Assembly: GCF_901538355.1 (NCBI RefSeq)
Contig: NZ_LR593887.1
Span: 6,300,920-6,364,919 of the forward strand
Length of the DNA: 64,000 nt
Direction of reading: 5' to 3'
Source: Tuwongella immobilis
Lineage (GTDB): Bacteria > Planctomycetota > Planctomycetia > Gemmatales > Gemmataceae
The position numbers were made by a program, and so were the translations under genes. How positions within the stretch are numbered: position 1 is the stretch's first letter; every line of letters begins with the position of its first letter. Under the pieces are notes generated by a model. The model saw only the letters and a program-made list of their open reading frames with translations, searched no databases and had not been told where the DNA came from. Shown piece after piece: positions 8,001-59,846 of this stretch.

Positions 8001-11000
8001 CAATCGCTTGTTGCTGACGTTGCAACTCCTGATTGGCCTTGGGGTTCGGCATCGGCTCCTTCGCGGCTTCCGCCACTTTCTTCGCCACATCTGCCTGCTG
8101 TTTCGCCAGTTCCGCCGCCCGTTCATCGACCGGCTTGGCACCGTTCAACGCCTGCTGCAAGCGTTCAATCTGACGCTTGGCTACCGCTTGGGATGCCGGA
8201 ATATCTTGCGCTCGTGCATCGGTTGCATCTTGGATCGCATCTTGCATCGCTTCCAAGGCTTGCTGACGGCGCGCTTCCTGATTCGGGGCATCGAGTTGCG
8301 CCAATTTCTCGGCGTTCTCCGCCTGCTTGCGAGCATTCTCGGCGAGCTTCTGCGCCAACTCCTCACGGGCCTTCGCATCGTTCGCCGGTTTGTTCTCAAA
8401 CGGCTTGGCAATCTGCTCGGCTTCGCGGGCAAGTTTTTGCTGCTGCTGCGCGATTTGCGCCAACTCCTGACGTGCTTTGGCCAATCGCTGATCTTTCGAT
8501 GGCAGTTGATCGGCCAACTTTTGAAGCGCATCGCGGACTTGATTCATCTCCGCCTTGGCGACATCCGGCTGATCCTTTTCGATCGCCGCTTTCGCTTCGT
8601 CGGCGTTTTTCACCGCATCCTGTTGCGCTGCTTCGGCTTTCGGATCATTCGGGGGCAACGACAGTGCATCGGCAGCCCGCTGAATCGCGTTCTGCTCCCG
8701 TTGAAATGCCTGTTTCTTCTCGGGTGCCAGCGGTTGATTCGGGGTCTTCTTCGCCTCAGCTTCCACGCGATTTCGCAAATCGTCTTGCATGCGTGCCAAT
8801 TGACGAGCGGCTTCTCGTGGATCTTCCGCTTGAGCCGCGGCCCGTTCCAACTCGGCGGCGAGTCGGTCCAGTTCCAGCGCGGCTTTTTCTTGATTCTTCA
8901 CCGCTTCGAACAATTCGCCCTTCTCCAGAGCTTTCTCGGCTTGCTTGCCAGACTCCGGACTCACGGGTCGGGCTTGGGCTGCTCGGGTGCTCGGATCCGC
9001 CTTGTTCGCAAACTCTTGCAATTGCTTATTGAACTCTTGTTGCCGACGAGTCAGATCCGCAAATTGCTGCTGCTTCATCTCCTGATTCGTCTGTTCCATC
9101 GCTTGCCGAAGATCGCGTTGCTGTTGGGCCAACTCTTCGGCCCGATTCGCCATCTCGCGGGCCTGTTCGGTCCGATTCTCTTGCAAAGCATCTTGCAATG
9201 GTTCGGAACGCTGCATCAGCCGTTCCAACTCGCGTTCGAGTTCCCGCTGTTGCTCCCGAATCTTCGCAAGGTCTTCTGGCTTCGCGGTTTCCGCTTGCTG
9301 GGCTAACTGCTCCTGCTTCGTCGCCAACTGCTCAATCTGAGCACGATCTTGCCGCTCTTGGGCAATCTGATCGTTGGTCTTCTTCAGGGCTTCGAGCTTG
9401 GTGATCGCATCGCGATACAATCGATCGGATTGATCGAACTTCTGATTTCGCGGCGATGGTTCTTTTTCGGATTGGACTTGCTTAAGCGTCGATTCAATCG
9501 ACCGAAGTTCTTGATCAGCAACAGCTTGCAACACATCCGCAATCGGTTGCAACTCGGGAACAAGGGCCGTATCGCGGGCAAATTCTTCCAACTGCTCCAA
9601 CACGCGATGTGCCGATTCTCGGAGCGTGATGAGTTCGGTCACGGTCACACCGCGCAACGGAACATCATCTCGAGATTCCGATTTCAGTCGGAATAAGGTT
9701 CGTTGTTGGGCCACCAGCTCGCGAATGATTTCGTCCAATCGTTCGCGAATCTGCTTCTGTTGAGCTGCAATCTCTTGCTGCTTCAGGGGTTCCGCACTGC
9801 GGGCAATCTGGAGTTCGGCCCACTTCCCTTCTTCGGGATAGTAGGTCGCTTGCGGCTTCAACTTCGCTTCAGGAACCGAGCGGTTATCCACCGCCTTGAG
9901 ACGATACTGAACGCGATCGCCTTCCTTGGCCTGAGCGGGCATGGTCAGCGCCAGCATGCCCGTCACTTGTGTGGTTTTCAGACCTTTCACGTCAATCGGC
10001 CGCACGATGGGGCTTCCGCCCGCGACGCGCATTTCGACTTCGACGGTTTCAACCGACAAATCATCGACCACCGAAAATTCAATCGGCAGCTTGTCTGCAG
10101 GGTTGATCGCGCGAATCGTCTCGGTGATGCCACTCACTTTCCAGAATTTCGGTGCGGTGTCGAGTTTGACATTCATAGCCAACGCGGGAATTTCCGTACG
10201 AATGCCATGTTCTGCTTCGATGATGAGCTGCAATTGGCCGGACTCGGTGGCCAATCGGCTCCAGGTGGCGCTGGCGTCGTCGTGCAGACCAATCGGCAAT
10301 CGTTCCGTTTTCGCAACTGGTTCCCGGTTCGAGGGTTGCGGCGTCCACTCCATCCAAACTTGGGTGGGTCGGCGGCTAAATTGCAGATTGAAGGTGGCGA
10401 TTCCGTATTGCCAAATCGTGAAATCGGCGACTCCACGCGTCGGCTCGATCGGATCCACGGATGTCTCTGCGTATGCCGGCGGAGTCACTCGGATTTCCGT
10501 GTCGCCCAAAAGCTCAATCGGCGGAACCACCGTCACGGGATACCAATCGGTGGTCACTTCGCCAGCTTGAATGGCATATTCAAAGCTCGTCTCGACCGTC
10601 GCACGGCGGGCCACAAACAAATTTTCTGCATCCGATGTCATGGCAACGCTTTCGGGCGAGGCATCGGGCGTGGAGCGCATCAGGATTTTCGCGGTCGTCG
10701 GCAGAATTGCTCGGGGTTGGGTCGCTTCGATGGCCGCCGTCAGCGTGACCGAGTCGCCCTTTTTCATGAAAATTTCGCCGGATGTCACCACGACTCGATA
10801 CGGTGCGGTGGCAGCGGGCGACAGCCAGGGCATGAAGAACCGTTGCGCGAAGCGTTGCAGCGGTTCCGAGAACGCCAACGTGGTGACGCTTGCCCCCAGG
10901 ACGGCGGCGGTGGTTAGCACCAGTGCCACAACGGTCTTCATGGGCAGTGCGGATTCAAAATCCATCGACCGCGTGCGAATTTCGGTTTCATGTCCTAATA

Positions 11001-46851: not shown

Positions 46852-47562
46852 ATGCCGTTGGTCCAATTTCCGTCTACGGTTTGGGAAGATATCGAAAATC
46901 TCAAATCCGAGAATGCAGCCGTCGTCAAGCAGGCGATGGAATCGCTGTTGAAGCGGTACGAATATCCCATCGAGCAATACTTCAAGATCCGATTTCGGAA
47001 TCATCCGCTGCTGAAAAATGAAATCGATTCGATCAAGAATCAAACGCTCGCCGATTTATCGGTCGGCAAAGGGGCCGAACATCTGCGGTCGATGACTTCG
47101 GAATCGACGCCCAGCTTTCGGGCGTGGCTGTTGAAGCGGATCAAATGGGCAGCTCAAAGTGTCGAACGCACGTTGTATGCCCGCCAATCCAGCCACATTC
47201 ACGGAGCGGCATCGTTGAATGAGCTACAAGCAAACCAAGACAGCATCGCCGATGAGGCCGATACCGCCTACGATCGCGCATTTGTCGAATCGACCTTGCG
47301 AGAAGTGGATCGGCGATTGAAAGCTCGCTGCGATCACCCGCAGTATTTCGACATCCTCAAACCGTATGTCCGCTCCGATTCCACGGTCCCCTATGCCGAC
47401 TTGTGTGCCCAGACCGGCCTGCGGAAAGAGCAACTGTATGGCATCGTGCACAAATTCCGGGAACTCTGGAAAGTGTTGCTGCGCGAAATCGTGTTGGAAA
47501 CCGTCGGCTCTCCCTCCGAGGTGGAGCGCGAATTGTTGGAACTGATGCGGCAATGCCTGTGA
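46852..47562 (+). CDS. Sigma-factor-like (ECF-type) protein paired with a Ser/Thr kinase
   Basis: The 236-residue protein resembles the divergent planctomycete ECF proteins found beside Hanks kinases. The region-2-like part (AMESLLKRYEYPIEQYFKIR; TPSFRAWLLKRIKWAAQSVE) is followed by a C-terminal helical region-4-like part (TVPYADLCAQTGLRKEQLYG) that could be a helix-turn-helix. The classic DAEDLVQETF motif is absent. It precedes the kinase by 9 bp, so the two form one unit and the kinase probably controls it. DNA binding or polymerase binding is inferred, not shown. Confidence 0.7.
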   Translation: MPLVQFPSTVWEDIENLKSENAAVVKQAMESLLKRYEYPIEQYFKIRFRNHPLLKNEIDSIKNQTLADLSVGKGAEHLRSMTSESTPSFRAWLLKRIKWAAQSVERTLYARQSSHIHGAASLNELQANQDSIADEADTAYDRAFVESTLREVDRRLKARCDHPQYFDILKPYVRSDSTVPYADLCAQTGLRKEQLYGIVHKFRELWKVLLREIVLETVGSPSEVERELLELMRQCL

Positions 47563-47571
47563 GGAATCGCC

Positions 47572-50500
47572 ATGAGCAACGGATCAATCGCGGAACCGCT
47601 GTGCATTCGCTGTCAACGGGTTGCAGTTGTGCCCGATTTTGACATGTGCCACGATTGCATGATCCAAGAAGCCCTCGTCATTCCGGCGTATCGATCCGTT
47701 GGTTCACCGCCCGACTCCCCGGCGGCGGCGCTTGCGGTGGCCCAGCCGGATTCCAGCTCCGCTCCTCCGCAATCGGCCGATTCGCAATCGCGGATTCCCG
47801 GCTACCGCCTCGTTCGCTTTCTGGGCGAAGGGGCGATGGGCCGCGTCTATTTTGCCTATCGGCTGCACGAGGTTGGCTCGACTCGCACCGAAGTGGCGGA
47901 ACCAGTGGCCGTGAAGGTGATTCGGCGGGAACGGCTGGCACGTCGGCCCGATGCGATTGCGAATTTCGCCCGCGAAGCGACCGTGATGCAGGCACTTCGG
48001 CATCCGCACATCATTCAGGTGATCGACTTCGATTTGGAAGGCGAAATTCCATATCTGGCCATGCCCTGGTGCGAAGGCGGACGATTAACCGACTACCTGG
48101 AACGGGTGATGGATCTTGCCCGACATCCCTGGTTTGGGCAACGCACCGTCGCGTCGAAACCGCCGCAGTCCGATGCCACCCAGATGCCGAGTGAATCGAT
48201 CCTCCGTTCACAATCGCCGGGGTTGGGAACGGACTTCAGTCGTTCCACCGATGCGGATACCGATGCCGATGCCGATGCAACTCCATCATCGGGGCTGATT
48301 CGGATTGGGATGCATCAACATGAGCCGATGTTTCTGGAACTGAGCGAAGACGATTTGCCGAATCCGAATCTGCAAGCCAACCAAGCCATGACTTGGCTGA
48401 ATGAGTCATTGCTGGCCACGGATGCGGGTCAACGGCAAGTGCTGCGGACCTTTGTGGGATGGATCGCGGACATCGCCAACGGCATGAATTATGTGCATGC
48501 GATGCGCATTTCGCATCTCGATATCAAGCCCGATAATCTGCTGGTGGTCAACGAAACGGTCATTCAAGTCACCGATTTCGGAATCGCGTTTCGGTCGCAA
48601 TCGCTGGATCAGGCACACAATTTGGAGCGTGGGACACCACCGTTTATCCCACCGGAGCAATTCCACGCGTATGCCGACGCAAACGAACGCGGGACACCGA
48701 TTTTACATGACATTTACTCGCTGGGCACGACGCTCTATTGCTGCCTGACGCTGTCGATGCCGTTTATTGCAATGGACGATCAGGGCAATCCCAAATTGGA
48801 CGATCAGGGCAAAATCCTGATCGACCGCGACGCCAAGCGAGCGAATCGCTTCCCGACGCCACGTGCGTTGTGCCCGAAAATTCCGCGTGATTTGGAAGCG
48901 ATTTGCCTGCGTGCGATGGCGACCGATCCGGCATCGCGCTACCCTAGCATGGCCGAATTCGAGCAGGATTTGCGTCATTATCTGGCAAATCGCCCCGTGA
49001 CGGCTCGCCCCGCGTCGATGGTGCATCGCGCTCGGCTGTGGCGTCGCCGCAATCCGTCGCTGAGTATCGCCATTGGATTGTCGCTGGTGGCACTGATGAC
49101 GGTCAGCATTGCGATTGTGCGCGCGATTCGCTCGGAATTCGCCGTGCTGACCGCCGAGAATCGGATTCGCGAGCAGGAAAATCAAATCCTCACCGCCGAA
49201 TTGAAGCAAGCCTCCGAAGAGAATCGTCGCCAATTCGTGCAATTGGCGGAAGATGCCAGCCATCGCGGAAATTGGGACGAAGCGTTGCGGCTCACCGATC
49301 GCGCCCTGCAACATGCAGATGATCCGCTACCGTTGCAGGTGGGCCGCATTCCCGCACTGCTCGCGCTCAATCGCCAATTTGAAGCCCAAGACGAACTACG
49401 ACGATTGAGCGAGACCGTTCAGACGCCGGAACTCCAGGGATTGGTGCAATTCTACCAGGCGGATTTGGTGTTGTGGGAACCGACCCGAGCCAAAGAAGGC
49501 CAACGATTGCTGGAACAGGCAATCCAAAACGGCTTGCCCCCCGCGGAATTGGCCACCGCCAAGGGATTGCTCGCCAGCAAAACCCGCGAATCGATCCAAT
49601 GTTTTCGCGATGCTCTGGGGCACGATCCGTACTGCCACCGCGCTCGAACGCACCTGATTCTGTCGCACTTGTTTGTGTGCGATCTCGAGGTGACGCAGCA
49701 GGAAATCCAGCGATTCCGCGAGTTGTATCCGCACGATGGCTTTGCGGATCTGGCGGATGCTTGGCAGGCGTTATTGTCGCTGAAACTCGACGAAATCCCC
49801 CCGTATTTGGATGCGTTCCTTGCCAAGCGACCGGATGTCGATCCCAAGCCACTGCGGGAATTCTTCCAAACCTTTGGCCCCGTCCTGAAGGACGCCGTTC
49901 AGTATTGGAATTCCGACGGAGAGAATCCACTGGTGCTGTTCAAGATTGCCTCACGCTTGAAGCCGCTCAGCAGCCAATCATCCGGCCAATTCGCGGCGTT
50001 GGGATACGGCAGCCCGATTATTCAACGGCTCACGCGGGTGATTCCCATCGTTTCGCAAAGCCTGGCCAACCGCATCTGGGGCCCCTCACAGGCCGCGGTT
50101 CAGAAGATGCGCGAGGAATACGCCCAGCACCCCGAAGCGTTGTTGTTGTACACCGCGGCGATCTTGCAACTGGACATCGCCGTGACAACATCGACCGCGG
50201 GGAAAGTCCCGGAAACCAAGCAAGCCTTGCTCGAATTGGCCGATTTGAACCAACTCGGAATGCTGGCCCCTTCGTTGTTACAAACCAAGAATTTCCGCTG
50301 GCGATTCCGCATGTTGAACTGCGTCGCCAACGGCGCACTGCTCACATTGGAACCGGACTCATCCCCGGAACGGGAGCGGCAATTGCACGATGATTTACGC
50401 CTGCTGATTCTCGAAACCCGCGAAGAAGTCGTCTTCCGGGACACCTTCCCGATCGTCCTCCAAGCCGTTGGCCCGGCACGTGGCCGACTGTTTTTGTTGG

Positions 50501-50715
50501 ATTGGATCGAAGACAATGCACGGGATATTCGCCCGTTGCGTCTGCTCGCTCGACTGGAATTCAAGGCAGGGAATCTCGCCGAGGCGCGAAAACGCACCGA
50601 GCAAGCACTCGCACTCGCGCCAAACGACCAAGAAGCCCGCGAACTGTTACAAACCATCGATGCGGCCCCCGAAATGATTCCGGTGGCCCCCCGACCTCTC
50701 CCCGACATGAAATGA
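47572..50715 (+). CDS. Large Ser/Thr protein kinase with TPR-like sensor region
   Basis: The 1047-residue protein opens with a zinc-ribbon-like CIRCQ...CHDC, then a kinase domain (about 75-470): FLGEGAMGRVYFAY, VAVKVIRR, HLDIKPDN with catalytic Asp317, TDFG (Asp335) and IPPEQF. The RD arginine is Leu (HLD), so it is a non-RD kinase. About 110 extra residues (180-290, with an Asp-Ala repeat STDADTDADADA) interrupt the domain before the catalytic loop. One membrane helix (about 494-520) leads to 520 outer residues of TPR-like helices. It follows the sigma-like gene by 9 bp. Confidence 0.9.
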   Translation: MSNGSIAEPLCIRCQRVAVVPDFDMCHDCMIQEALVIPAYRSVGSPPDSPAAALAVAQPDSSSAPPQSADSQSRIPGYRLVRFLGEGAMGRVYFAYRLHEVGSTRTEVAEPVAVKVIRRERLARRPDAIANFAREATVMQALRHPHIIQVIDFDLEGEIPYLAMPWCEGGRLTDYLERVMDLARHPWFGQRTVASKPPQSDATQMPSESILRSQSPGLGTDFSRSTDADTDADADATPSSGLIRIGMHQHEPMFLELSEDDLPNPNLQANQAMTWLNESLLATDAGQRQVLRTFVGWIADIANGMNYVHAMRISHLDIKPDNLLVVNETVIQVTDFGIAFRSQSLDQAHNLERGTPPFIPPEQFHAYADANERGTPILHDIYSLGTTLYCCLTLSMPFIAMDDQGNPKLDDQGKILIDRDAKRANRFPTPRALCPKIPRDLEAICLRAMATDPASRYPSMAEFEQDLRHYLANRPVTARPASMVHRARLWRRRNPSLSIAIGLSLVALMTVSIAIVRAIRSEFAVLTAENRIREQENQILTAELKQASEENRRQFVQLAEDASHRGNWDEALRLTDRALQHADDPLPLQVGRIPALLALNRQFEAQDELRRLSETVQTPELQGLVQFYQADLVLWEPTRAKEGQRLLEQAIQNGLPPAELATAKGLLASKTRESIQCFRDALGHDPYCHRARTHLILSHLFVCDLEVTQQEIQRFRELYPHDGFADLADAWQALLSLKLDEIPPYLDAFLAKRPDVDPKPLREFFQTFGPVLKDAVQYWNSDGENPLVLFKIASRLKPLSSQSSGQFAALGYGSPIIQRLTRVIPIVSQSLANRIWGPSQAAVQKMREEYAQHPEALLLYTAAILQLDIAVTTSTAGKVPETKQALLELADLNQLGMLAPSLLQTKNFRWRFRMLNCVANGALLTLEPDSSPERERQLHDDLRLLILETREEVVFRDTFPIVLQAVGPARGRLFLLDWIEDNARDIRPLRLLARLEFKAGNLAEARKRTEQALALAPNDQEARELLQTIDAAPEMIPVAPRPLPDMK

Positions 50716-50724
50716 GCGTCCGAA

Positions 50725-51498
50725 ATGGCATCTCTGCCCACTTACGAACAAATGCTGAAAACCACTCCATTGACCGCCGAAATGACCCGATTGGAGCGAC
50801 AAGCCGCCCGCACTTGGCCGACCGAATCGCACTGGTTGACGCAATTTGGCCTGCGCGATGGCCAGCGCGTGTTGGATCTCGGCTGTGGCACGGGTGCGTT
50901 CACGCATCGGCTGCATGCGCTCTGCCCGGCCAGCCCGATTACGGGTGTCGATCACAATGTCGCCTGGCTGAACAAGGCCCAGCAACAAACGCCACACGCC
51001 GCGATTCGCTGGGTCGAAGCCACCGTCACCGAAACCGGGTTGCCCGATGAATCGTTCGATTGGGTCATTTCCCGATTTGTGCTGCGCTTTCTGCCCGATC
51101 CGATGGCGGCGATTCGGGAAGCGATGCGGCTGTTGGTCCCCGGCGGCAAGCTCGTGCTGATCGACGCCGACGATGATCTCGCCGCGATTATCGATCCGCC
51201 GATCCGCCCCCAGACCGGCCACGGTCCCCCCTGGCGCGATCAATCGATGTATCGCGCGGGCCGCCATCTCATTCGTTGGCTGCGGCAGGCGGATTGTCAC
51301 AACATTCAATTCCAGGCCATCGCCAGCCATAGCGATTTGCTCGGGCTGGATGCGTTTTCCGTGACTGCATGGGGGGATTCCGCATCGCAATCCTGGCAGC
51401 ACGATTTCGTGCAAAACCCCGATGCGCTGATCTTGTTGATGCACTTCTTGGCGTGCGGCGAAAAAAGTTCGGGAAATTCCCCGATTCCGAAAAAATGA
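50725..51498 (+). CDS. SAM-dependent methyltransferase (class I)
   Basis: The 257-residue enzyme has motif I VLDLGCGTGAFTHRL (S-adenosylmethionine binding), GVDHNVAWLN, motif II/III FDWVISRFVLRFLPDP and PGGKLVLIDADDD. It looks like a small-molecule or peptide methyltransferase rather than an rRNA enzyme. It starts 9 bp after the kinase gene and ends 68 bp before the Cys-rich peptide gene, so it may tailor that peptide; this link rests on position. A hairpin lies between it and the peptide gene. Confidence 0.86.
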   Translation: MASLPTYEQMLKTTPLTAEMTRLERQAARTWPTESHWLTQFGLRDGQRVLDLGCGTGAFTHRLHALCPASPITGVDHNVAWLNKAQQQTPHAAIRWVEATVTETGLPDESFDWVISRFVLRFLPDPMAAIREAMRLLVPGGKLVLIDADDDLAAIIDPPIRPQTGHGPPWRDQSMYRAGRHLIRWLRQADCHNIQFQAIASHSDLLGLDAFSVTAWGDSASQSWQHDFVQNPDALILLMHFLACGEKSSGNSPIPKK

Positions 51499-51522
51499 CG
51501 CATCTGCACCCGTTTTCCAGGT

Positions 51523-51549
51523 GAGCCACTGAGCAAGGTGCTCAGACTC
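51523..51549 (+). promoter_or_regulatory. Hairpin in the leader of the Cys-rich peptide gene
   Basis: CTGAGCA-AGG-TGCTCAG (51529-51545) is a perfect 7-bp stem with a 3-nt loop, and outer GAG/CTC can extend it. It ends 10 bases before the GGAG ribosome site of the peptide gene. No T-run follows, so processing or translation control is as likely as termination. Confidence 0.5.
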
Positions 51550-51566
51550 AACCTGGAGAAATGACC

Positions 51567-51764
51567 ATGAAGATGATCGATCTGATGGTGGCGGTCCTCC
51601 CCGGCCCGGCGATGGCCAACTGCGGCGCGACCTGCGGCGCAACCTGCACCTGTAGCCCCGCCTGCTCGCACCTGCCCAAGGCGGGCAATGACACGGCCAA
51701 GCCGGTGGTCAGCAGCGACGACCTCGACGCGCTGCTGGCCGCGGTGGAATCCATCTCCGCCTAA
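51567..51764 (+). CDS. Candidate RiPP (lanthipeptide-type) precursor peptide
   Basis: The 65-residue peptide starts at the second of three close ATGs, 8 nt after GGAG. A hydrophobic N-terminus (MIDLMVAVLPGPAMA) is followed by NCGATCGATCTCSPACSH, five Cys (19, 23, 27, 29, 33) interleaved with Thr and Ser, including three Thr-Cys pairs suited to methyllanthionine rings. The last 19 residues (VVSSDDLDALLAAVESISA) form an acidic amphipathic helix of the kind seen in RiPP leaders, but here it is C-terminal. Genes for a kinase-cyclase and a HopA1-like protein follow. The family is unknown to me; a small metal-binding protein is the alternative. Confidence 0.7.
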   Translation: MKMIDLMVAVLPGPAMANCGATCGATCTCSPACSHLPKAGNDTAKPVVSSDDLDALLAAVESISA

Positions 51765-51828
51765 CATTGTCCACTTCCAATCGACTCCGAATGCCCGATA
51801 CGAACCCTCCGATTTCAGGAGCCACCCC

Positions 51829-52971
51829 ATGACCCGATGGAACTGGATCGCTGCAACGTATCGGCTGCATCCGGAAGTCGAAATCCGCCGGATTCCGGAC
51901 CTTTCCCCAATCGAGCGAGACCGATTGGGGAAAGGTCTGGACCCGGAGATTCACGCCGTCATCTGGCCCAAACTCGGCGTGCTTCGCTCCGTGAAGGCCA
52001 TCTGCGGTCGCACCTTGGCGATTCTGGATTGGGCATTGTCGGCGAATCGACTCCCGCCGGAATCGGCGGCCTTGCTGTCAGTCGCCCAAGGGCAACCACT
52101 GGAGCAGTGGTTGCAACGGCTGGTCATCGCCGAGATTCTGGAAGTCGAATCGCAGGGGCGATGGAGCAGCGGGCCGAGCGTGGCTGCATGGGCGGAATCC
52201 CCATTGGGCACCGATTCGCTCTCGGCACAAGCGTTGCGATACGCCGCCTGTCTGCCGGTGAGCGATCCGCACGAATTATCCGCCCGGTTGTATTTTTTCC
52301 AACGCCGCCCGGTATCCCCGACATTGGAGGCGAAATGGCCCCATCTGCCCCTGCAAACGCCCCAATGGCTGAGCGATCGCATCCCGGCAGACTGGTCGGC
52401 GGTACCGATTCGGCGGGAGGATGGCTGGCAGCATTTGCTGCCCCCGCGCCCCGGCCCCAAGCCACGCCACACCACCTGGAAACTCTATGTCAGCACCACA
52501 CCGGAACAGCTCATCGCGCATCTGCCCGCAATGTTGCAGACACTCGCCGAGCAACCGCTGACCGCCGCGAAAATCGTCTGCACAGCGGCGGGGCTGCAAC
52601 GTCCCGATCATTTTGTGGCTTACTTTGCGGAACAAGCCGAGCTGCGCGACGCGGCAAAGCGGCTGCGGATTCGGTTCGATGGCCTGCCCGGCACCGGCAT
52701 TCCGTTCACGGCGTCGGCCGGCGTTCCCTGGTTGGGATGGGGAGTCGATCCCCCGCGATTGCGACCACGAACCGACCAGCACGAACCCGAAAGCTGGCGA
52801 TTATGGCTCACCAACCGGCTGGCACTGGCAATCGTACAAGCGAAATCCCGCCAAGATGCCGCTCAATCGCCGCAATCCGCCGTCGATTTTGCCCTTCTAC
52901 GCATTCGCGCGGAGGGGGTCGATCCCCAACTTTGGCTACCGCTTGCGGAATGGATGGAGAATCATGCGTAA
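51829..52971 (+). CDS. HopA1-like protein, candidate phospho-Ser/Thr lyase of the peptide locus
   Basis: The 380-residue protein follows AGGAG and ends 8 bp inside the next gene. Its second half (WKLYVSTTPEQLIAHLPAML; LQRPDHFVAYF; TGIPFTASAG; EPESWRLWLTNRLALAI; AEGVDPQLWLP) has the order of elements I associate with HopA1-type lyases that make dehydroamino acids in class V lanthipeptide systems. The first 125 residues are helical and could be a winged-helix recognition domain. By eye the match is weak but consistent, and it would supply the lyase missing from the downstream kinase-cyclase. Function is inferred from context. Confidence 0.6.
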   Translation: MTRWNWIAATYRLHPEVEIRRIPDLSPIERDRLGKGLDPEIHAVIWPKLGVLRSVKAICGRTLAILDWALSANRLPPESAALLSVAQGQPLEQWLQRLVIAEILEVESQGRWSSGPSVAAWAESPLGTDSLSAQALRYAACLPVSDPHELSARLYFFQRRPVSPTLEAKWPHLPLQTPQWLSDRIPADWSAVPIRREDGWQHLLPPRPGPKPRHTTWKLYVSTTPEQLIAHLPAMLQTLAEQPLTAAKIVCTAAGLQRPDHFVAYFAEQAELRDAAKRLRIRFDGLPGTGIPFTASAGVPWLGWGVDPPRLRPRTDQHEPESWRLWLTNRLALAIVQAKSRQDAAQSPQSAVDFALLRIRAEGVDPQLWLPLAEWMENHA

Positions 52972-55351
52972 CCCGTTGCTCGCTCCGGATCAAGCGTATC
53001 GACTATCTGCCGATGTGCTGTTTGTCGATCCGCAGGAACTCAGCCTTGAACAAGCCCGCGCGCTCAACGCCGCCCCCGGCGATGTCGCGCTGACCAAGCG
53101 AGGCAGCCGAATCCCCTCGCGGCTCATCGATGCCCGCACCGCCAATCTGCTGCGGGGCTTTACCACGCCGAGCACCATTCCGGAGCGAATCCGCGAATTT
53201 TGCCTTGCCGAGCAGCAGCCCGCCGCCAGCATGGTGCGGGAAATCGCTCCCATGTTGCTGCAACTCATTGAGGAGCGATTTCTGCTGCGAATCGATGACC
53301 ATTCATCGCAATTGCAGCCGATTCTCCGCCCGGAGATGACCATCGGCGGATATTTCACTCTGCGAAATGTGCAATGTCTGGACGATACGGAAGTCTGGGA
53401 AGCTCGATCCGCATCGGGCGAACGCTGGGCGTTGAAACTGGCCCGCGACCCCGCCCATTTCGCCAAACGACAGCGACTCCAACACGAAGCGACCATACTC
53501 CGCGAACTCGCGCTGCCGATGATTCCTCGCGTCGGTGAGCCGTTCGAGTGGGAAAATCGTCTGATTGTCCCGATTCAATGGATCGACGGCGAGCGGGTCG
53601 ATCTCGCCCTGGAAAAAATCCGCTCCCTGGGCGTGCTTGGCTCCGCGAAGCCGCTGCTGGCCATCGCGCAATCGATCGCCCATGCCGTGGCGCAAGTCCA
53701 CGACGCCGGTTGGCTGCATGGCGATCTTCACCCCGGAAATCTGCTGCTAACCGCCGATCATTCCATTGCGTTAATCGATTTCGAGCAAGCGATTCGCATC
53801 GATGCGGCGGAATCGGGCAGCCGCGCGGGGGTCGCCTATTTCCTTGCTCCGGAACAGGCCCGCGCTCGATTCGCAGGCCACCCCGAACCCCGCACTCCGG
53901 CCAGCGAACAATACGCCATCTGTGTGCTGCTCTGGTTGTTGCTGACCGGGAAATATCCGCAGTCATTCGACCTGCAACGCGACCGCATGCTCCGACAAAT
54001 CGCGGATGAATCCATCGACCGAATGAAGGGGCTACCGATCGATTTCCCCGTAGGAATCGAAGGCATTCTCCGTCGGGGGTTGCAAAAACATCCCGCCGAT
54101 CGCTATGCCAATTTGCACGAATTGACCGCCGCCCTGGCTGAGTTGGGCCGCCGTCCGCCATCGGCTCCGCAGGTGGTACGCTCGAAGCCGCCGGAATTGC
54201 TGGCCCGATTTTGCGACCCGGATTCGGTTGGTTCGCGTCCCGATTGGTTGCCGGATTTCAATCACGCGCGGGCGTCGCTGGCGTTGGGGTTGGCGGGGGT
54301 TGCGTATGCGGTTTGGCGGCGGGCGATTCACACGAATTCCGCATCGGCGCTGGCGGCGGCCGATCTCTGGGCCTGTCACGCCGAGCAAGCTGCGCATGCG
54401 GACCGATTCCATCATCCGAAATGGGATTTGACTGCCGACACGGTTGCCCCCGCTTCCATCTGGTATCATCAGGCGGGGGTGGCGTGGATTCGCAGCCTCA
54501 TCAGCCACAGCCAGGGCGACACGCTGACCCGCGATCGGGCCGTGCAGCAATTCTTGGATTGCACGGCATCTCCCGCCGCGTGGGATCTCACGCATGGGAA
54601 ATCGGGAATTCTGCTCGCGGCAACCTACCTGCACGAATTTGGCATCCGCAGCGAGTCGCTGCACCAGCGTGCCGCGACGCTGGCAACCGACTTACAAGGT
54701 CTGCTGGCAGACGCCCCCCGCATCGGCACCGATCCCGATCGTCCCTATTTGGGGATCGCGCACGGCTGGTCCGGGCCGCTGGTGGCGCTGATCCGCTGGC
54801 ATCGCGCCCATCAACGGACGTGGCCGCCGGCGATTCATCCGCGATTGCAGGAACTTGCGGCATGTGGCACGCCTCAACCCACCCCGCACGGCCAGGCCAT
54901 CGCGTGGCGTCGCCAATCGCCATGTGCCCAAAATCGAGGCGATTTTCAGGGATGGTGGTGCAACGGCACGTCGGGAATGGCGACGCTGTGGAGTTTGGCC
55001 GCCGATTCCGACCGCCGATATCTGCCGCTGTTGGAACAGACCGCTTGCCACATCGCGGCGACGGTACCAATTGGCGCGGATCTCTGCTGCGGCGCGGCCG
55101 GCCACGCCTACGCTCTGCTGCAAGCCAGCGCGATTCTCGATCGCCCCGAGTGGCGCACGCGCGCCGTCGAACTGGCACACTCCGCCGAGCAATCGCCGCC
55201 GCCCGTGGAGCAAACGCTTAGCCTCTTCAAAGGCTGGCTCGGAATCGCCCTCCTCCACGATGAACTCCAAGACGGCCTCACCCTGCCCATGCCATTGATG
55301 GAAGCTTACCCCGCACTCCCCGGCACCAACACAACCCACCCTGCCCCATGA
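52964..55351 (+). CDS. Kinase-LanC fusion, lanthionine-synthetase-like
   Basis: The 795-residue protein has three parts. Residues 1-115 are a small domain whose end (IREFCLAEQQPAASMVREIA) looks like a PqqD/RRE-type leader-binding winged helix. Residues 125-400 are a protein kinase (WALKLAR with Lys158, LHGDLHPGN with Asp254, IDFEQA with Asp272). Residues about 430-790 are a LanC-type cyclase with GIAHGWSG (His600), WWCNGTSG (Cys666) and CCGAAGH (Cys708, Cys709), the expected zinc site in CCG form rather than CHG. No lyase domain of the LanL/LanKC kind is present. GGAG precedes the ATG, which overlaps the upstream stop. Confidence 0.88.
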   Translation: MRNPLLAPDQAYRLSADVLFVDPQELSLEQARALNAAPGDVALTKRGSRIPSRLIDARTANLLRGFTTPSTIPERIREFCLAEQQPAASMVREIAPMLLQLIEERFLLRIDDHSSQLQPILRPEMTIGGYFTLRNVQCLDDTEVWEARSASGERWALKLARDPAHFAKRQRLQHEATILRELALPMIPRVGEPFEWENRLIVPIQWIDGERVDLALEKIRSLGVLGSAKPLLAIAQSIAHAVAQVHDAGWLHGDLHPGNLLLTADHSIALIDFEQAIRIDAAESGSRAGVAYFLAPEQARARFAGHPEPRTPASEQYAICVLLWLLLTGKYPQSFDLQRDRMLRQIADESIDRMKGLPIDFPVGIEGILRRGLQKHPADRYANLHELTAALAELGRRPPSAPQVVRSKPPELLARFCDPDSVGSRPDWLPDFNHARASLALGLAGVAYAVWRRAIHTNSASALAAADLWACHAEQAAHADRFHHPKWDLTADTVAPASIWYHQAGVAWIRSLISHSQGDTLTRDRAVQQFLDCTASPAAWDLTHGKSGILLAATYLHEFGIRSESLHQRAATLATDLQGLLADAPRIGTDPDRPYLGIAHGWSGPLVALIRWHRAHQRTWPPAIHPRLQELAACGTPQPTPHGQAIAWRRQSPCAQNRGDFQGWWCNGTSGMATLWSLAADSDRRYLPLLEQTACHIAATVPIGADLCCGAAGHAYALLQASAILDRPEWRTRAVELAHSAEQSPPPVEQTLSLFKGWLGIALLHDELQDGLTLPMPLMEAYPALPGTNTTHPAP

Positions 55352-56344: not shown

Positions 56345-57358
56345 TCACCCCGCCGCGACCGGATTCCGCTTCCGTGCCAGCCAGCGGAATAGCCCCGCCA
56401 CCACGAACAGTACCGCCGCGCCCACCACATACCACGTCCGAGACACTCCGCTCGACACTGGCTCCACACCCACCGACGCTGATCCCGCTGACTCCGATCC
56501 CGCTGGCTCCGGCAATCCATAATGCGACAGCCGAAACTCCGCTTCCGGGACCGGCTCCCACGAGTAATCCGTGTATGTCCACCGTTGATGACGAAGCGGA
56601 TCATCCGCGGTTGCGGTATGCAGGATCACATCCACTTGTTTGCCCAAATACGCCTGCGGGTCATTCGGCGAAACATCCACCTCCCGCGTTGTTTCCATCT
56701 TCCACGGGCGATTCGTGCTCGCAATCACCCCTTCCAGCACACACTTCACCGGCAAATAATGCCGCTTCGGATCCAGCGTCAATTCGCCACTTCCAGCCGT
56801 GCATCGAAAGACCAGCGTTCGCTGCTGGTCGTTCGCCTCACCGATCTTCACAACAGTGAATCCTGGCAACGATGGCAAATCCAACACCGTCGTCTGTCTG
56901 AATCGATCAAAGTACTGATGCACTACCGTCAATGGATGTAACAACTGAGGATAGCCAGCACTCGCCCTGAGCTTATCAATTGTTTCAGAATCATCTTTCG
57001 AAAGAAAATGAATGAGACTCCATGGTGCACCAGGAGGTGTGGATCGCAGCGATAAAAGATAATCACTCGACTGACCGAGTACGACGTTAAACACATCGCT
57101 TTCGTTGAAAAGGAGCCATTGACGATCTCGCTGCTTGAGATCACAAAACATCAATTCTTGCACACCCTTGGAGTTCACGACATGTTCGCGCGAGCGATAG
57201 CGTGGCGGTTTCGACTCCATCGCGCGAAGTTGCTGCCATTCTTGCTGAATCGTCGCAAAATCGACTTGCGGTTCCGCTCCAACCATCGGCATCCATGCCA
57301 ACGGAAGCAACAACGGAAGCAACATCGCAAGGCAATCGAGCATCCATTGTCGGCACAT
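56345..57358 (-). CDS. Tail-anchored secreted protein, paralogue 1 of 3
   Basis: The 337-residue protein has a signal peptide (LLPLLLPLAWMPMVGA), about 250 residues of outer domain (QQEWQQLRAMESKPPRYRSR; TVLDLPSLPGFTVVKIGE; LTLDPKRHYLPVK), then FRLSHYGLPEPAG, a Ser/Gly-rich spacer, one membrane helix (WYVVGAAVLFVVAGLFRWL) and ARKR. A perfect AGGAGGTGA site precedes the ATG. The pattern of PEP-containing spacer, helix and Arg/Lys end resembles a C-terminal sorting or anchoring tail. It is closest to paralogue 3. Function unknown. Confidence 0.78.
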   Translation of the reverse strand: MCRQWMLDCLAMLLPLLLPLAWMPMVGAEPQVDFATIQQEWQQLRAMESKPPRYRSREHVVNSKGVQELMFCDLKQRDRQWLLFNESDVFNVVLGQSSDYLLSLRSTPPGAPWSLIHFLSKDDSETIDKLRASAGYPQLLHPLTVVHQYFDRFRQTTVLDLPSLPGFTVVKIGEANDQQRTLVFRCTAGSGELTLDPKRHYLPVKCVLEGVIASTNRPWKMETTREVDVSPNDPQAYLGKQVDVILHTATADDPLRHQRWTYTDYSWEPVPEAEFRLSHYGLPEPAGSESAGSASVGVEPVSSGVSRTWYVVGAAVLFVVAGLFRWLARKRNPVAAG

Positions 57359-57371
57359 CGATCTCACCTCC

Positions 57372-58379
57372 TCACCCCGCCGCGACGTGAGTCCGCTTCC
57401 GTGCCAGCCAGCGGAATAGCCCCGCCACCACGAACAGCACCACCGCACCCACCACATACCACGTCCGAGACACTCCGCCCGACGCCGGCTCCACACCCAC
57501 CGACGCTGATCCCGCTGACTCCGATCCCGCTGGCTCCGGCAACCCATAATGCGACAGACGAAACTCTTCCTCTGGTGCAGGAATTGTGGTGTACCCAGAA
57601 TAATCATACCGATGACTAACGGTCATCTTTTCCGACGCCGATGCGGCAGTAACGAAGAGACGATATTCTAGGCGGCGACATTGAATCGATTTCCCATCCG
57701 ATGCGGGGTCAACTTCCCGGTCCGTTTCGTTCCGCCAATCGACATTCCGATCGGTGTTCCGCCCACGACAGATCGATTGCACGGGGAGATAGTGACGTTT
57801 CGGATCGAGCAATAATTCCCCATTTCCCGCATCACATCGAAACGAAAGTCGAATCAACCCATCTTTCGCCGATGCGGAATTCGTCACTTGAAAACCGGGA
57901 AGTTGTGGAAGTTCACAAACACGCATGGCACTTCGAGAATCAAAGCCCGATTGAATCGCAGTCAGCGGATACACAAACAGATTAAACCCCATCGCCGCCC
58001 GCATCGCGTCGGCATTCGGACTGGACGTGTCTTGCTCAATCGTCAGTAATGTCCACGGAGCATCCAACGGTTCGGATCGGATCACGAACACATATTTTTC
58101 GGAATTTGCAATTGTTGACGATCCGAATGGATTCGAATGAGCAACCAGCCAATGATTGCTGCGTTTTTTGACATGGAAGTCGAGAAGAATCACATTCGTT
58201 CTCGGTGCCAGTTCTTTGTCGGTGATCTTGTAGCCGGTTTGTGCGAGTTCCATTGTTTGGAGAATCTGCCACTCGCGGCGGATTGTCTCAAAGTCCAAAT
58301 CCGGCTCCGCTCCGACAATGCTGTTGGAGGAAATTGACAGCATCAACAATAACCACAACATCCGCCAGCGATGGATCAT
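57372..58379 (-). CDS. Tail-anchored secreted protein, paralogue 2 of 3
   Basis: The 335-residue protein shares the plan of its neighbours: signal peptide (MLWLLLMLSISSNSIVGA), EPDLDFETIRREWQIL, LPQLPGFQVTN, LLLDPKRHYLPVQ and the same C-terminal tail. The central region is well diverged from the other two copies, but the last 65 residues are almost identical to theirs. GGGGAG precedes the ATG. It ends 13 bp before paralogue 1 starts. Function unknown. Confidence 0.77.
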   Translation of the reverse strand: MIHRWRMLWLLLMLSISSNSIVGAEPDLDFETIRREWQILQTMELAQTGYKITDKELAPRTNVILLDFHVKKRSNHWLVAHSNPFGSSTIANSEKYVFVIRSEPLDAPWTLLTIEQDTSSPNADAMRAAMGFNLFVYPLTAIQSGFDSRSAMRVCELPQLPGFQVTNSASAKDGLIRLSFRCDAGNGELLLDPKRHYLPVQSICRGRNTDRNVDWRNETDREVDPASDGKSIQCRRLEYRLFVTAASASEKMTVSHRYDYSGYTTIPAPEEEFRLSHYGLPEPAGSESAGSASVGVEPASGGVSRTWYVVGAVVLFVVAGLFRWLARKRTHVAAG

Positions 58380-58466
58380 CCGTCTCCCCTTGTTTCGTTC
58401 CTCGGTGCTCCGAAACCCTCTTGCAATTTCTGCATCGCTTCAGCCAATGCCAACGACGAATCCCCA

Positions 58467-59468
58467 TCACCCCGCCGCGACCGGATTCCGCTTTCGTGCC
58501 AGCCAGCGGAATAGCCCCGCCACCACGAACAGCACCACCGCACCCACCACATACCACGTCCGAGACACTCCACCCGACACTGGCTCCACACCCACCGACG
58601 CTGATCCCGCTGACTCCGATCCCGCTGGCTCCGGCAACCCATAATGCGACAGCCGAAACTCCGCTTCCGGGACCGGCTCCCACGAGTAATCCGTGTACGT
58701 CCAACGTTGATGACGAAGCGGATTATCCGCTTTGGTCGTCAGGTTAATCACATCCACTTGCTTGCCCAAATACGCCTGCGGATCATTCGGCGAAACATCC
58801 ACCTCCCGCGTTGTTTCCAACTTCCACGGAGTTGTTGATCCAGGATAAACACCCTCGAGCACACACTTTACAGGCAAATAATGCCGCTTCGGATCCAGCG
58901 TTAGTTCGCCACTTCCAGCCGTGCATCGAAAGACCAGCGTTCGCTGCTGGTCGTTCGTCTCACCGATCTTCACAACAGTAAATCCTGGCAACGATGGCAA
59001 ATCCAACACCGTCGTCATCTGCGTTCGATCGAACGCGTGATGGAGCACTGTCAACGGATGAAATATTTGGTCATATTTGATCACGGCTCGGAGTGGAAGC
59101 GATTGGGCGGTATCACTTGCATCACAAACCCCGAGAACCGTCCACGGGGCACCTGGCGGAGTCGATCGCAACGCAAAGAAATACTCATCCGACTGCCCAA
59201 ACGACGCATTAAACACATCGCTCTCGTTGAATGTGAACCACTGCTGATCCCGTTGTTTGTTCTCCATCACCAACAATTCTTGCACACCCTTGGCAAGCAC
59301 TGCGTGTTCGCGGGAACGATAGCGTGGCGGTTTCGACTCCATCGCGCGAAGTTGCTGCCATTCTTGCTGAATGAGTTGGAATTCGTTGCTTTGCGCGGCC
59401 AAATTCGCCGGTGCAATCAGAATCGCCAGGAGCAGAAGCCCCACACCCAAAACCTGTTGGCTTACCAT
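58467..59468 (-). CDS. Tail-anchored secreted protein, paralogue 3 of 3
   Basis: The 333-residue protein has a signal peptide (VLGVGLLLLAILIAPANLAA), the same EWQQLRAMESKPPRYRSREH segment as paralogue 1, NESDVFNASFGQSDEYFFAL, and from about residue 165 to the end is almost the same as paralogue 1. GGAGG precedes the ATG at MVSQQ. It is the first gene of the three-gene run. The copies may give related surface proteins with different middle regions. Function unknown. Confidence 0.78.
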   Translation of the reverse strand: MVSQQVLGVGLLLLAILIAPANLAAQSNEFQLIQQEWQQLRAMESKPPRYRSREHAVLAKGVQELLVMENKQRDQQWFTFNESDVFNASFGQSDEYFFALRSTPPGAPWTVLGVCDASDTAQSLPLRAVIKYDQIFHPLTVLHHAFDRTQMTTVLDLPSLPGFTVVKIGETNDQQRTLVFRCTAGSGELTLDPKRHYLPVKCVLEGVYPGSTTPWKLETTREVDVSPNDPQAYLGKQVDVINLTTKADNPLRHQRWTYTDYSWEPVPEAEFRLSHYGLPEPAGSESAGSASVGVEPVSGGVSRTWYVVGAVVLFVVAGLFRWLARKRNPVAAG

Positions 59469-59846
59469 GCTGCCTCCGAGCGGGGCGACACGAAACGGAC
59501 GAACCACGAAATGGGCCGCGTGGCCGAGAATGCAGCGATCCGACGAGATCACGCGGTGATTCGATCATAACCGGCCAGAGTGAGCGAAAGCAAGTCTCTG
59601 CGATTGTATTTTCGTATTTCCCGACGATCTTCGCCTCATCGCCAAATCATCCAAGATTCGAAGCACTGATGAACCTGAGTTAGTGACACCGTCTCCGTTG
59701 TGAATCGCCCGGATTCAGCGGTGCGGTGGCGTGATTTTCGCAAGCGAGGAGCGGAATCTTGCCTGAGCCCGTACGAGTTTCACCATGGCGGGGAGGCGGC
59801 GGGTTTCTATCATATTGGGGAATGTTGCCATTAGCCTGGAGTGGTC
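59469..59846. other. Divergent intergenic region upstream of alaS
   Basis: About 380 bp separate the three-paralogue operon (leftward) from alaS (rightward), so promoters for both must lie here. I see no clear -35/-10 pair, inverted repeat or small gene, and no T-box-like structure before alaS. Confidence 0.4.

Follow-up and report, generated by a model that had tools for sequence, protein, structure and literature searches.

Lanthipeptide classes are defined by the arrangement of lyase, kinase, and cyclase. In the excerpted text of PMC10676316, class III LanKC is one chain without zinc ligands, and class VI combines a kinase with cyclase and lyase domains that are truncated. In class V, the kinase LanK is of PF01636 and stands alone, the lyase LanY is of PF17914, and class Vb adds a LanC cyclase (excerpt of PMC12291118). 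A Cys-Cys-Cys ("CCC", CCG) zinc triad is described for class IIa cyclases (excerpt of PMC11251773). We analyzed a 64,000-nucleotide stretch of the Tuwongella immobilis genome (contig NZ_LR593887.1, positions 6,300,920 to 6,364,919; here, the window) and found a locus in which a kinase is fused to a LanC cyclase and a lyase-like protein is encoded by its own gene. The best reading is that this pair represents a class of lanthipeptide synthetases with a new architecture, which we call a "split LanL." We put the probability that a two-protein synthetase encoded here produces a lanthipeptide at about 0.8, and we infer the chemistry.

The locus was picked out in an original prediction as four consecutive plus-strand genes. 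We found these at window positions 50725 to 55351, closely packed and with all frames intact; they encode a methyltransferase, a peptide, a lyase-like protein, and a kinase-LanC protein. The methyltransferase gene ends 68 bases before the start of the peptide gene, and another gap, of 64 bases, separates the peptide gene from the lyase gene. The last 8 bases of the lyase gene overlap the start of the kinase-LanC gene. That kinase and cyclase are fused and the lyase separate, as was also proposed, agrees with the Pkinase and LANC_like matches of the fusion protein and with the lyase gene adjoining the fusion gene in 17/17 loci with a visible flank. The two enzymes have the following features:

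51829 to 52971, plus strand: putative stand-alone phospho-Ser/Thr lyase (LanY/HopA1 type), P0001, 380 amino acids (predicted fold, residues)
51829 to 52197, plus strand: RRE-like N-terminal domain of the lyase, residues 1 to 123 (in the model, strands and then three helices; profile match to the kinase-LanC N terminus)
52198 to 52968, plus strand: predicted lyase domain, residues 124 to 380, with candidate catalytic Lys218, Lys248, Arg258, and Tyr265 (LxmY match over 124 to 373)
52964 to 55351, plus strand: fused Ser/Thr kinase-LanC cyclase, P0002, 795 amino acids (Pfam, NCBIfam, model)
52964 to 53329, plus strand: RRE-like N-terminal domain of the kinase-LanC protein, residues 1 to 122 (strand/helix order as in the lyase)
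53330 to 54178, plus strand: kinase domain, residues 123 to 405, with Lys158, Glu175, HGD252-254, Asn259, and Asp272 (Pfam, alignment, model)
54191 to 55306, plus strand: LanC cyclase domain, residues 410 to 781, with zinc triad Cys666, Cys708, and Cys709 and with His600 in AHGW (Pfam, alignment, model)

We found that P0002 matches Pkinase (PF00069) at 59.2 bits (cut-off, 31.7) and LANC_like (PF05147) at 68.3 bits (cut-off, 23.2), the latter over model positions 5 to 342 of 350. It also passes the cut-off of the APH family PF01636 (31.3 bits; cut-off, 23.2). Residues 165 to 740 align with LanL residues 232 to 803 (NCBIfam NF038150; E 1.1e-42), at 146.4 bits against a curated cut-off of 650. 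The kinase Lys, Glu, HGD, Asn, and Asp are invariant in 16/16 fusion sequences, and so are LanC His600, Cys666, Cys708, and Cys709, the last three giving a Cys-Cys-Cys zinc triad. By sequence, the PF05147 match and the zinc triad place P0002 in the LanC cyclase superfamily. The best structural matches of the LanC part of the predicted model were GCR2 and LanCL1/2 (Z 34.8 to 35.7), and the kinase part matched PknB (Z 27.1). We also compared the model with residues 210 to 861 of CuvL (PDB 8car/8cav), which we take to be a class IV LanL. Both domains aligned in order, kinase and then cyclase (Z 31.6), with a root mean square deviation (rmsd) of 15.5, so the two domains are placed differently in the P0002 model.

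The original prediction had called the 51829 protein HopA1-like and had named the lack of a lyase fold as a finding that would count against it. By sequence the likeness is weak, but structure prediction gives P0001 a phospho-Ser/Thr lyase fold. An AlphaFold2 model built on a 15-sequence alignment had a mean pLDDT of 85.6 and a pTM of 0.85. The best PDB match in Foldseek was LxmY of the class V lexapeptide dehydratase (E 8.6e-9), followed by HopA1, the lyase parts of single-chain synthetases, and OspF/SpvC. VIA-align gave Z 16.7 against LxmY (226 residues aligned; rmsd, 3.6), 16.1 against HopA1, 14.7 against CuvL, 9.7 to 13.6 against class III lyase parts (ThurKC, SalKC, and PneKC), and 11.3 against OspF, with matches outside the superfamily from 8.4. 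The predicted fold of P0001 is thus that of the LanY/HopA1/OspF superfamily. Sequence searches added less. RamC_N matched below threshold (E 0.085), and PDB sequence and profile searches with the lyase returned nothing useful, with two perhaps relevant rows (9wj0 and 9wop, E 2). Residues 194 to 249 align with the very start of the class IV LanL model (NCBIfam, E 0.016), which touches 1/15 lyase members, P0001 itself. Since P0001 matches the LanL start and P0002 the remainder, a LanL in two pieces is suggested.

The candidate catalytic residues were assigned by spacing, without side-chain superposition. In CaoY, Lys219 and Arg187 are needed for elimination, Arg229 is important, and Tyr236 is conserved (excerpt of PMC9486802). 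The spacing of P0001 Lys248/Arg258/Tyr265 is exactly that of CaoY Lys219/Arg229/Tyr236. Lys218 lies near the place of CaoY Arg187 and SpvC Lys104, 30 residues before the base against 32 in CaoY. We found that Lys218, Lys248, Arg258, and Tyr265 are invariant in 15/15 aligned lyases. The second residue after Lys218 is an invariant Tyr; SpvC has its acid, His106, there.

About 120 N-terminal residues of each enzyme lie outside the LxmY match or the kinase match. Both models have the same order of elements here: two strands, a short helix, two strands, and three helices. When the lyase and kinase-LanC domains were compared one to one with hhalign, we obtained a probability of 90 and an E of 1.4e-6, whereas seven control pairs gave E 0.09 to 0.46. 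On this profile evidence, the N-terminal domains of the two enzymes are homologous. A RiPP recognition element (RRE) is defined as a winged helix-turn-helix of three strands and then three helices (excerpt of PMC12710340); the order of elements here resembles it, but with four strands and a short helix after the second. The domain would bind the N-terminal motif of the precursor peptide. In both Cupriavidus loci that carry the pair (L044 and L051), one more protein, 387 residues long, begins with this domain (domain E 2.5e-35 and 8.2e-36). In L044, for which Pfam was run, the C-terminal part of this protein is a 2OG-Fe(II) oxygenase (PF13640), and the L051 counterpart is alike:

L044, 12903 to 14063, and L051, 5164 to 6324, strand not given: Cupriavidus protein headed by the shared N-terminal domain (profile match)

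The Cupriavidus loci also hold a full LanB-like dehydratase gene, at 8256 to 11420 in L044 (PF04738 and PF14028) and at 7808 to 11008 in L051, where the frame looks alike. A Cupin_8 protein is encoded at 10975 to 11904 in L051. Each of these clusters apparently contains two dehydration systems.

Upstream of the lyase gene lies the gene for a small Cys/Thr-rich peptide, with the following features:

51567 to 51764, plus strand: putative precursor peptide gene (P0004), 65 amino acids, 5 Cys, Cys/Thr-rich; alternative start at 51561 (sequence; plan common to precursor-like genes at 15 other loci)
51567 to 51602, plus strand: N-terminal motif MKMIDLMVAVLP, residues 1 to 12, counterpart of M-x-F-K-x-K-D-L-M-I-x-V (motif matrix)
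51618 to 51677, plus strand: Cys-rich core, residues 18 to 37 (Cys 19, 23, 27, 29, and 33; Thr 22, 26, and 28; Ser 30 and 34)
51711 to 51761, plus strand: C-terminal helix-like segment, residues 49 to 65, SSDDLDALLAAVESISA (precursor alignment; helix suggested by the sequence)

We found a precursor-like gene directly upstream of the lyase gene in 16/16 loci with upstream sequence, the window included; these genes were picked by eye from open reading frame (ORF) lists and a motif pattern, and L046 and L053, where the upstream side is cut, were excluded. The Kribbella locus has two. The precursors follow a common plan, in which an N-terminal motif such as MPFKIKDLMISVVP is followed by a Cys-rich middle that also contains Ser/Thr and, at the C terminus, by a helix-like region like LKQQLKEALAEVE. 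The motif is recognizable in 15/16 loci and is not clear in L057. With the Paenibacillus peptide left out, 124 of the 129 Cys in 16 precursors lie between the motif and the C-terminal region. With a motif matrix built without the window, the start of P0004 ranked second among 3,257 start sites in the window (10.7 bits), behind an unrelated minus-strand ORF (11.6 bits). P0004 had no Pfam match and no second copy in its own genome in a search at E up to 1. Ten precursors, P0004 among them, gave no meaningful NCBIfam match, two listing weak rows far below the cut-offs. By computation, a precursor family exists across the loci, and residues 18 to 37 of the window peptide are likely to be the ring-forming region. 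Two members are extreme. A Paenibacillus plasmid gene (L043, 11017 to 11769) encodes three tandem motif-core-helix units, and the core of a precursor from a Chitinophagaceae metagenome-assembled genome (MAG; L054, 6848 to 7474) is a run of TCKRTNDDD-like repeats.

To place the pair in other genomes, we searched plasmid records and genome contigs. Plasmid records searched with P0001 gave full-length lyase relatives in Paenibacillus peoriae (E 3e-31) and Cupriavidus oxalaticus (E 5e-26), each adjoining a LanC relative, and searches with the lyases of other members returned the same two records. A first scan of genome contigs found no relatives; 16 loci were then retrieved from genome contigs with an alignment of three LanC domains. 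When 18 loci (L043, L044, and L046 to L061) were searched with profiles of both proteins, 17 had a fused kinase-LanC gene. We dropped L059, a Spartobacteria MAG locus whose LanC lacks a kinase part and stands beside a LanB-like gene, and a Sinorhizobium match (H3, E 0.07), since no LanC was seen among its adjoining genes. The 17 outside loci span Chloroflexota, Planctomycetota (Fuerstiella), Acidobacteriota, Pseudomonadota, Bacteroidota, Actinomycetota, and Bacillota. With the window, the fusion gene is present in 18 loci and the lyase-fusion pair in 17, from at least seven phyla; because 15 of the member loci came from one pattern-based scan, the locus count is a lower bound. The lyase gene adjoins the fusion gene in all 17 loci with a visible flank (16 outside loci and the window); L046 begins inside the fusion gene and was left out of this count, and L053 begins just before the lyase gene. 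In 15/17, the lyase gene shares the strand of the fusion gene and lies directly 5' of it; with the start codons chosen, the gaps range from -14 to +40 bases. The two Cupriavidus loci have a gene of oxygenase type between the two, and their fusion gene is on the opposite strand. Because the lyase gene adjoins in 17/17 loci and a precursor-like gene lies upstream in 16/16, the grouping is more than chance. The architecture and its recurrence are direct results of the computation, as are the conserved catalytic residues, the predicted lyase fold, and the precursor family. In the Fuerstiella locus (L047, 11531 to 18479), the pair is followed by a gene for an extracytoplasmic function (ECF) sigma factor (PF07638) and by a reading frame encoding a kinase/FGE-sulfatase protein of 2150 amino acids.

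The original prediction had looked to related genomes for the same gene order and had named its absence there as a second finding that would refute it; neither of its two refuting findings applies. The two-gene layout does recur, across phyla, but seemingly not in near relatives: in the family of T. immobilis, P0001 was found in 1/95 genomes, its own. In its phylum, P0001 was found in 2/392 genomes, its own and one with a weak 81-residue match (E 8.7e-4), which we judged false since no LanC or kinase relative lay in the 3.2 kb of sequence covered. A lyase profile matched 1/294 genomes, again its own. The phylum searches scored only 4 to 6 candidates per genome, so absence is unproven. The LanC domain was found in 2/95 family genomes, the second at E 3.8e-4. 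PF05147 was present in 58/392 genomes of the phylum, and the one match listed in T. immobilis is P0002. Among 30 loci taken from the other PF05147-bearing genomes of the phylum (L013 to L042), only L025 matched the LanC domain, and weakly (E 1.3e-5).

We then compared the locus with the known classes. Like class IV LanL (NF038150; CuvL), it has a PF00069-type kinase and then a zinc LanC domain in one chain. In contrast to LanL, the lyase has its own gene and is of the LanY/HopA1 type, an RRE-like domain lies N-terminal to the kinase, and P0002 scores below the curated LanL cut-off. With class V (LxmKY and CaoKY), the locus shares a stand-alone lyase, the LxmY/HopA1 fold, and the matching Lys/Arg/Tyr spacing. 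Unlike in class V, the kinase is fused to the cyclase, so that "stand-alone" fails outright, PF00069 fits it best though PF01636 passes, and P0001 has an additional N-terminal domain. A class VI synthetase was reportedly described from streptococci by He and colleagues in 2023. By the review excerpt (PMC10676316), class VI likewise has a kinase-cyclase protein without a full lyase; here, however, LanC is complete with its zinc triad and a full lyase is separate. Class III LanKC enzymes (ThurKC, SalKC, and PneKC) have the same lyase, kinase, and cyclase functions and a related lyase fold, whereas here the zinc triad is present in 16/16 sequences and the lyase is separate. The Cys-Cys-Cys triad is shared with class IIa CCC cyclases, but these are fused to a DUF4135 dehydratase. 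Each of classes III to VI fails at least one tested feature. That the layout had not been described before, as the original prediction supposed, fits our finding no description of it in the open-licence literature; because only open-licence papers were covered, this is weak evidence of absence. The excerpt of PMC11251773 counts eight peptides near a lyase and a CCC cyclase ("L-CCC"), with a lyase profile built from VenL (class IV). This tally, compared here without gene layout, may be an earlier sighting of such loci.

The kinase-LanC fusion with its class V-like lyase could also be named a class V variant. According to this view, the locus is a class V (Vb) system with LanK and LanC fused, a subtype and no class of its own. 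The best structural match of P0001 is indeed LxmY of class V, class Vb uses LanK, LanY, and LanC (excerpt of PMC12291118), and P0002 passes PF01636, the family of class V kinases. However, PF00069 is the better fit for the kinase, and the alignment of P0002 with LanL covers most of the protein, whereas class V LanK stands alone. The N-terminal domain of P0001 also lies outside the LxmY match, and Lys218 stands where CaoY seems to have Arg187, with the spacing off by two residues. We consider the class V subtype a possible but less likely alternative. We found far less reason to believe that a class IV LanL gene was split in two in this lineage, by recent fission and perhaps decay. The weak alignment of P0001 with the first LanL residues and of P0002 with the remainder would fit such an event, as would the long branch of the window copy. 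Yet the same split is found at 16 other loci over many phyla, the lyase is somewhat nearer LxmY and HopA1 (Z 16) than CuvL, both parts carry added N-terminal domains, the frames are intact, and searches of the organism's own family found no single-chain ancestor. Fission is disfavored and, in our view, highly improbable. The pair might instead modify proteins, or attach a small thiol at dehydrated sites in the manner of eukaryotic LanCL, with the Cys-rich peptides not being substrates. The LanC part does match GCR2 and LanCL1/2 best. This reading is hard to square with a precursor-like gene, with a middle rich in Cys and Ser/Thr, directly upstream in 16/16 loci, or with the three tandem units in Paenibacillus and the repeated core in the Chitinophagaceae MAG, and we consider it very unlikely.

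A two-protein lanthipeptide synthetase remains our preferred reading, and several observations weigh against it. Some concern the window copy, which may be fast-evolving or decaying. Its kinase-LanC sequence is the longest branch in the tree (3.13; median, 0.92), although only 4/15 inner branches of this tree are well supported. It has DFE in place of DFG, and the C-terminal segment of its peptide is a shortened form of the conserved region. Its lyase lacks Gly250 and Lys261, both kept in the 14 other aligned lyases, and its N-terminal motif is weak (10.7 bits against 20 to 31 for the 14 segments used to build the matrix, whose scores are partly high by construction). The long branch, the DFE, and the shortened precursor without another copy in the genome would fit a window copy that is decaying and without product in a family active elsewhere. 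All four frames are intact, however, and the kinase Lys/Glu/HGD/Asn/Asp, the lyase Lys/Lys/Arg/Tyr, and the zinc triad are all kept, so that we regard decay as unlikely. Other points concern the enzymes. P0001 matches PF17914 (HopA1) at E 0.18 and 12.1 bits, below the curated cut-off of 22.7, and is therefore filed as a lyase by its fold only; this family touches 2/15 lyase members at E up to 1 (best E, 1.4e-4). The P0002 model has a pLDDT of 82.0 and a pTM of 0.53, which makes its domain arrangement uncertain. No PqqD or RRE family passed in Pfam scans of the enzymes, in which the N-terminal domain was scanned as part of the whole protein, and the second-round structural comparisons covered mainly P0001 residues 167 to 376 and P0002 residues 125 to 410, with the N-terminal domains barely sampled. 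The RRE-like assignment, which comes from predicted topology, is tentative. We saw no transporter or leader peptidase by eye in the window ORF list, at which no profile search was aimed. With the chemistry taken by inference, the Cys-rich peptide is very probably turned into a ring-bearing peptide by this gene set.

The best explanation for the pair is that P0002 and P0001 are a LanL in which a free LanY-type lyase substitutes for the built-in one, whose position in the chain is taken by a recognition domain. According to this model, the precursor motif would be held by the RRE-like N-terminal domains of both enzymes, and the P0002 kinase, with its residues intact, would phosphorylate Ser/Thr in the core. 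P0001 probably docks on the kinase in the way that LxmY docks on LxmK. LxmKY is a heterodimer (excerpt of PMC12141560), and this analogy makes a lyase-kinase complex probable. As fold and residues suggest, P0001 would then eliminate the phosphate, with Lys248 as base together with Lys218, Arg258, and Tyr265, to give dehydroalanine or dehydrobutyrine. The zinc LanC domain of P0002 would add Cys thiols to these to form (methyl)lanthionine rings. The fullest version of this reading is one that we favor only slightly over its negation. In it, a further synthetase class in at least seven phyla pairs a kinase-LanC fusion with a free LanY-type lyase, both beginning with the same N-terminal domain for recognition, through which tailoring enzymes (the 2OG oxygenase of Cupriavidus) are recruited as well. 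Its precursors would have a short N-motif and a helical C-terminal "follower" that hold the core at both ends, with three tandem units and a long TCKRTNDDD-like repeat core as the extremes.

Further features lie upstream and downstream of the pair in the window:

50725 to 51498, plus strand: class I S-adenosylmethionine methyltransferase, possible tailoring enzyme, membership doubtful (Pfam Methyltransf_11, E 2.7e-22)

The original prediction counted the methyltransferase among the genes of the locus; it is not a conserved member. We found no similar protein in the sequence around 18 other loci (phmmer, E up to 10). Its membership is therefore unproven, and we rejected it as a core part. A kinase-TPR gene (47572 to 50715) ends 9 bases before it. 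The gene at 46852 to 47562 was considered as an ECF sigma factor and rejected, having no Pfam match at E up to 0.001. On the minus strand at 56345 to 59552, three neighboring frames have a common C-terminal end (EFRLSHYGLPEPAGSESAGSASVGVEP...SRTWYVVGA...LARKR) and are apparently a local duplicated family.

Loci of this kind could have been filed unnoticed. In the excerpt of PMC7268733, a large mining study assigned LanC proteins that carry PF00069 to class III or IV, and under this rule such loci would be placed in those classes. Because of this rule and the lack of meaningful NCBIfam matches in the ten precursors, the products are likely to have been overlooked. The system can be tested directly in strains that the records name: Paenibacillus peoriae HS311, Dictyobacter kobayashii Uno11, Kribbella pittospori NRRL B-24813, Cupriavidus oxalaticus X32, and Microvirga vignae BR3299. 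For engineering, the shared N-terminal domain together with the short leader motif may serve as a modular handle, and as substrates the repeat cores are unusual. As a two-protein enzyme whose lyase is class V-like, the "split LanL" connects classes IV and V, and it is relevant to the question of how single-chain synthetases came to be assembled.

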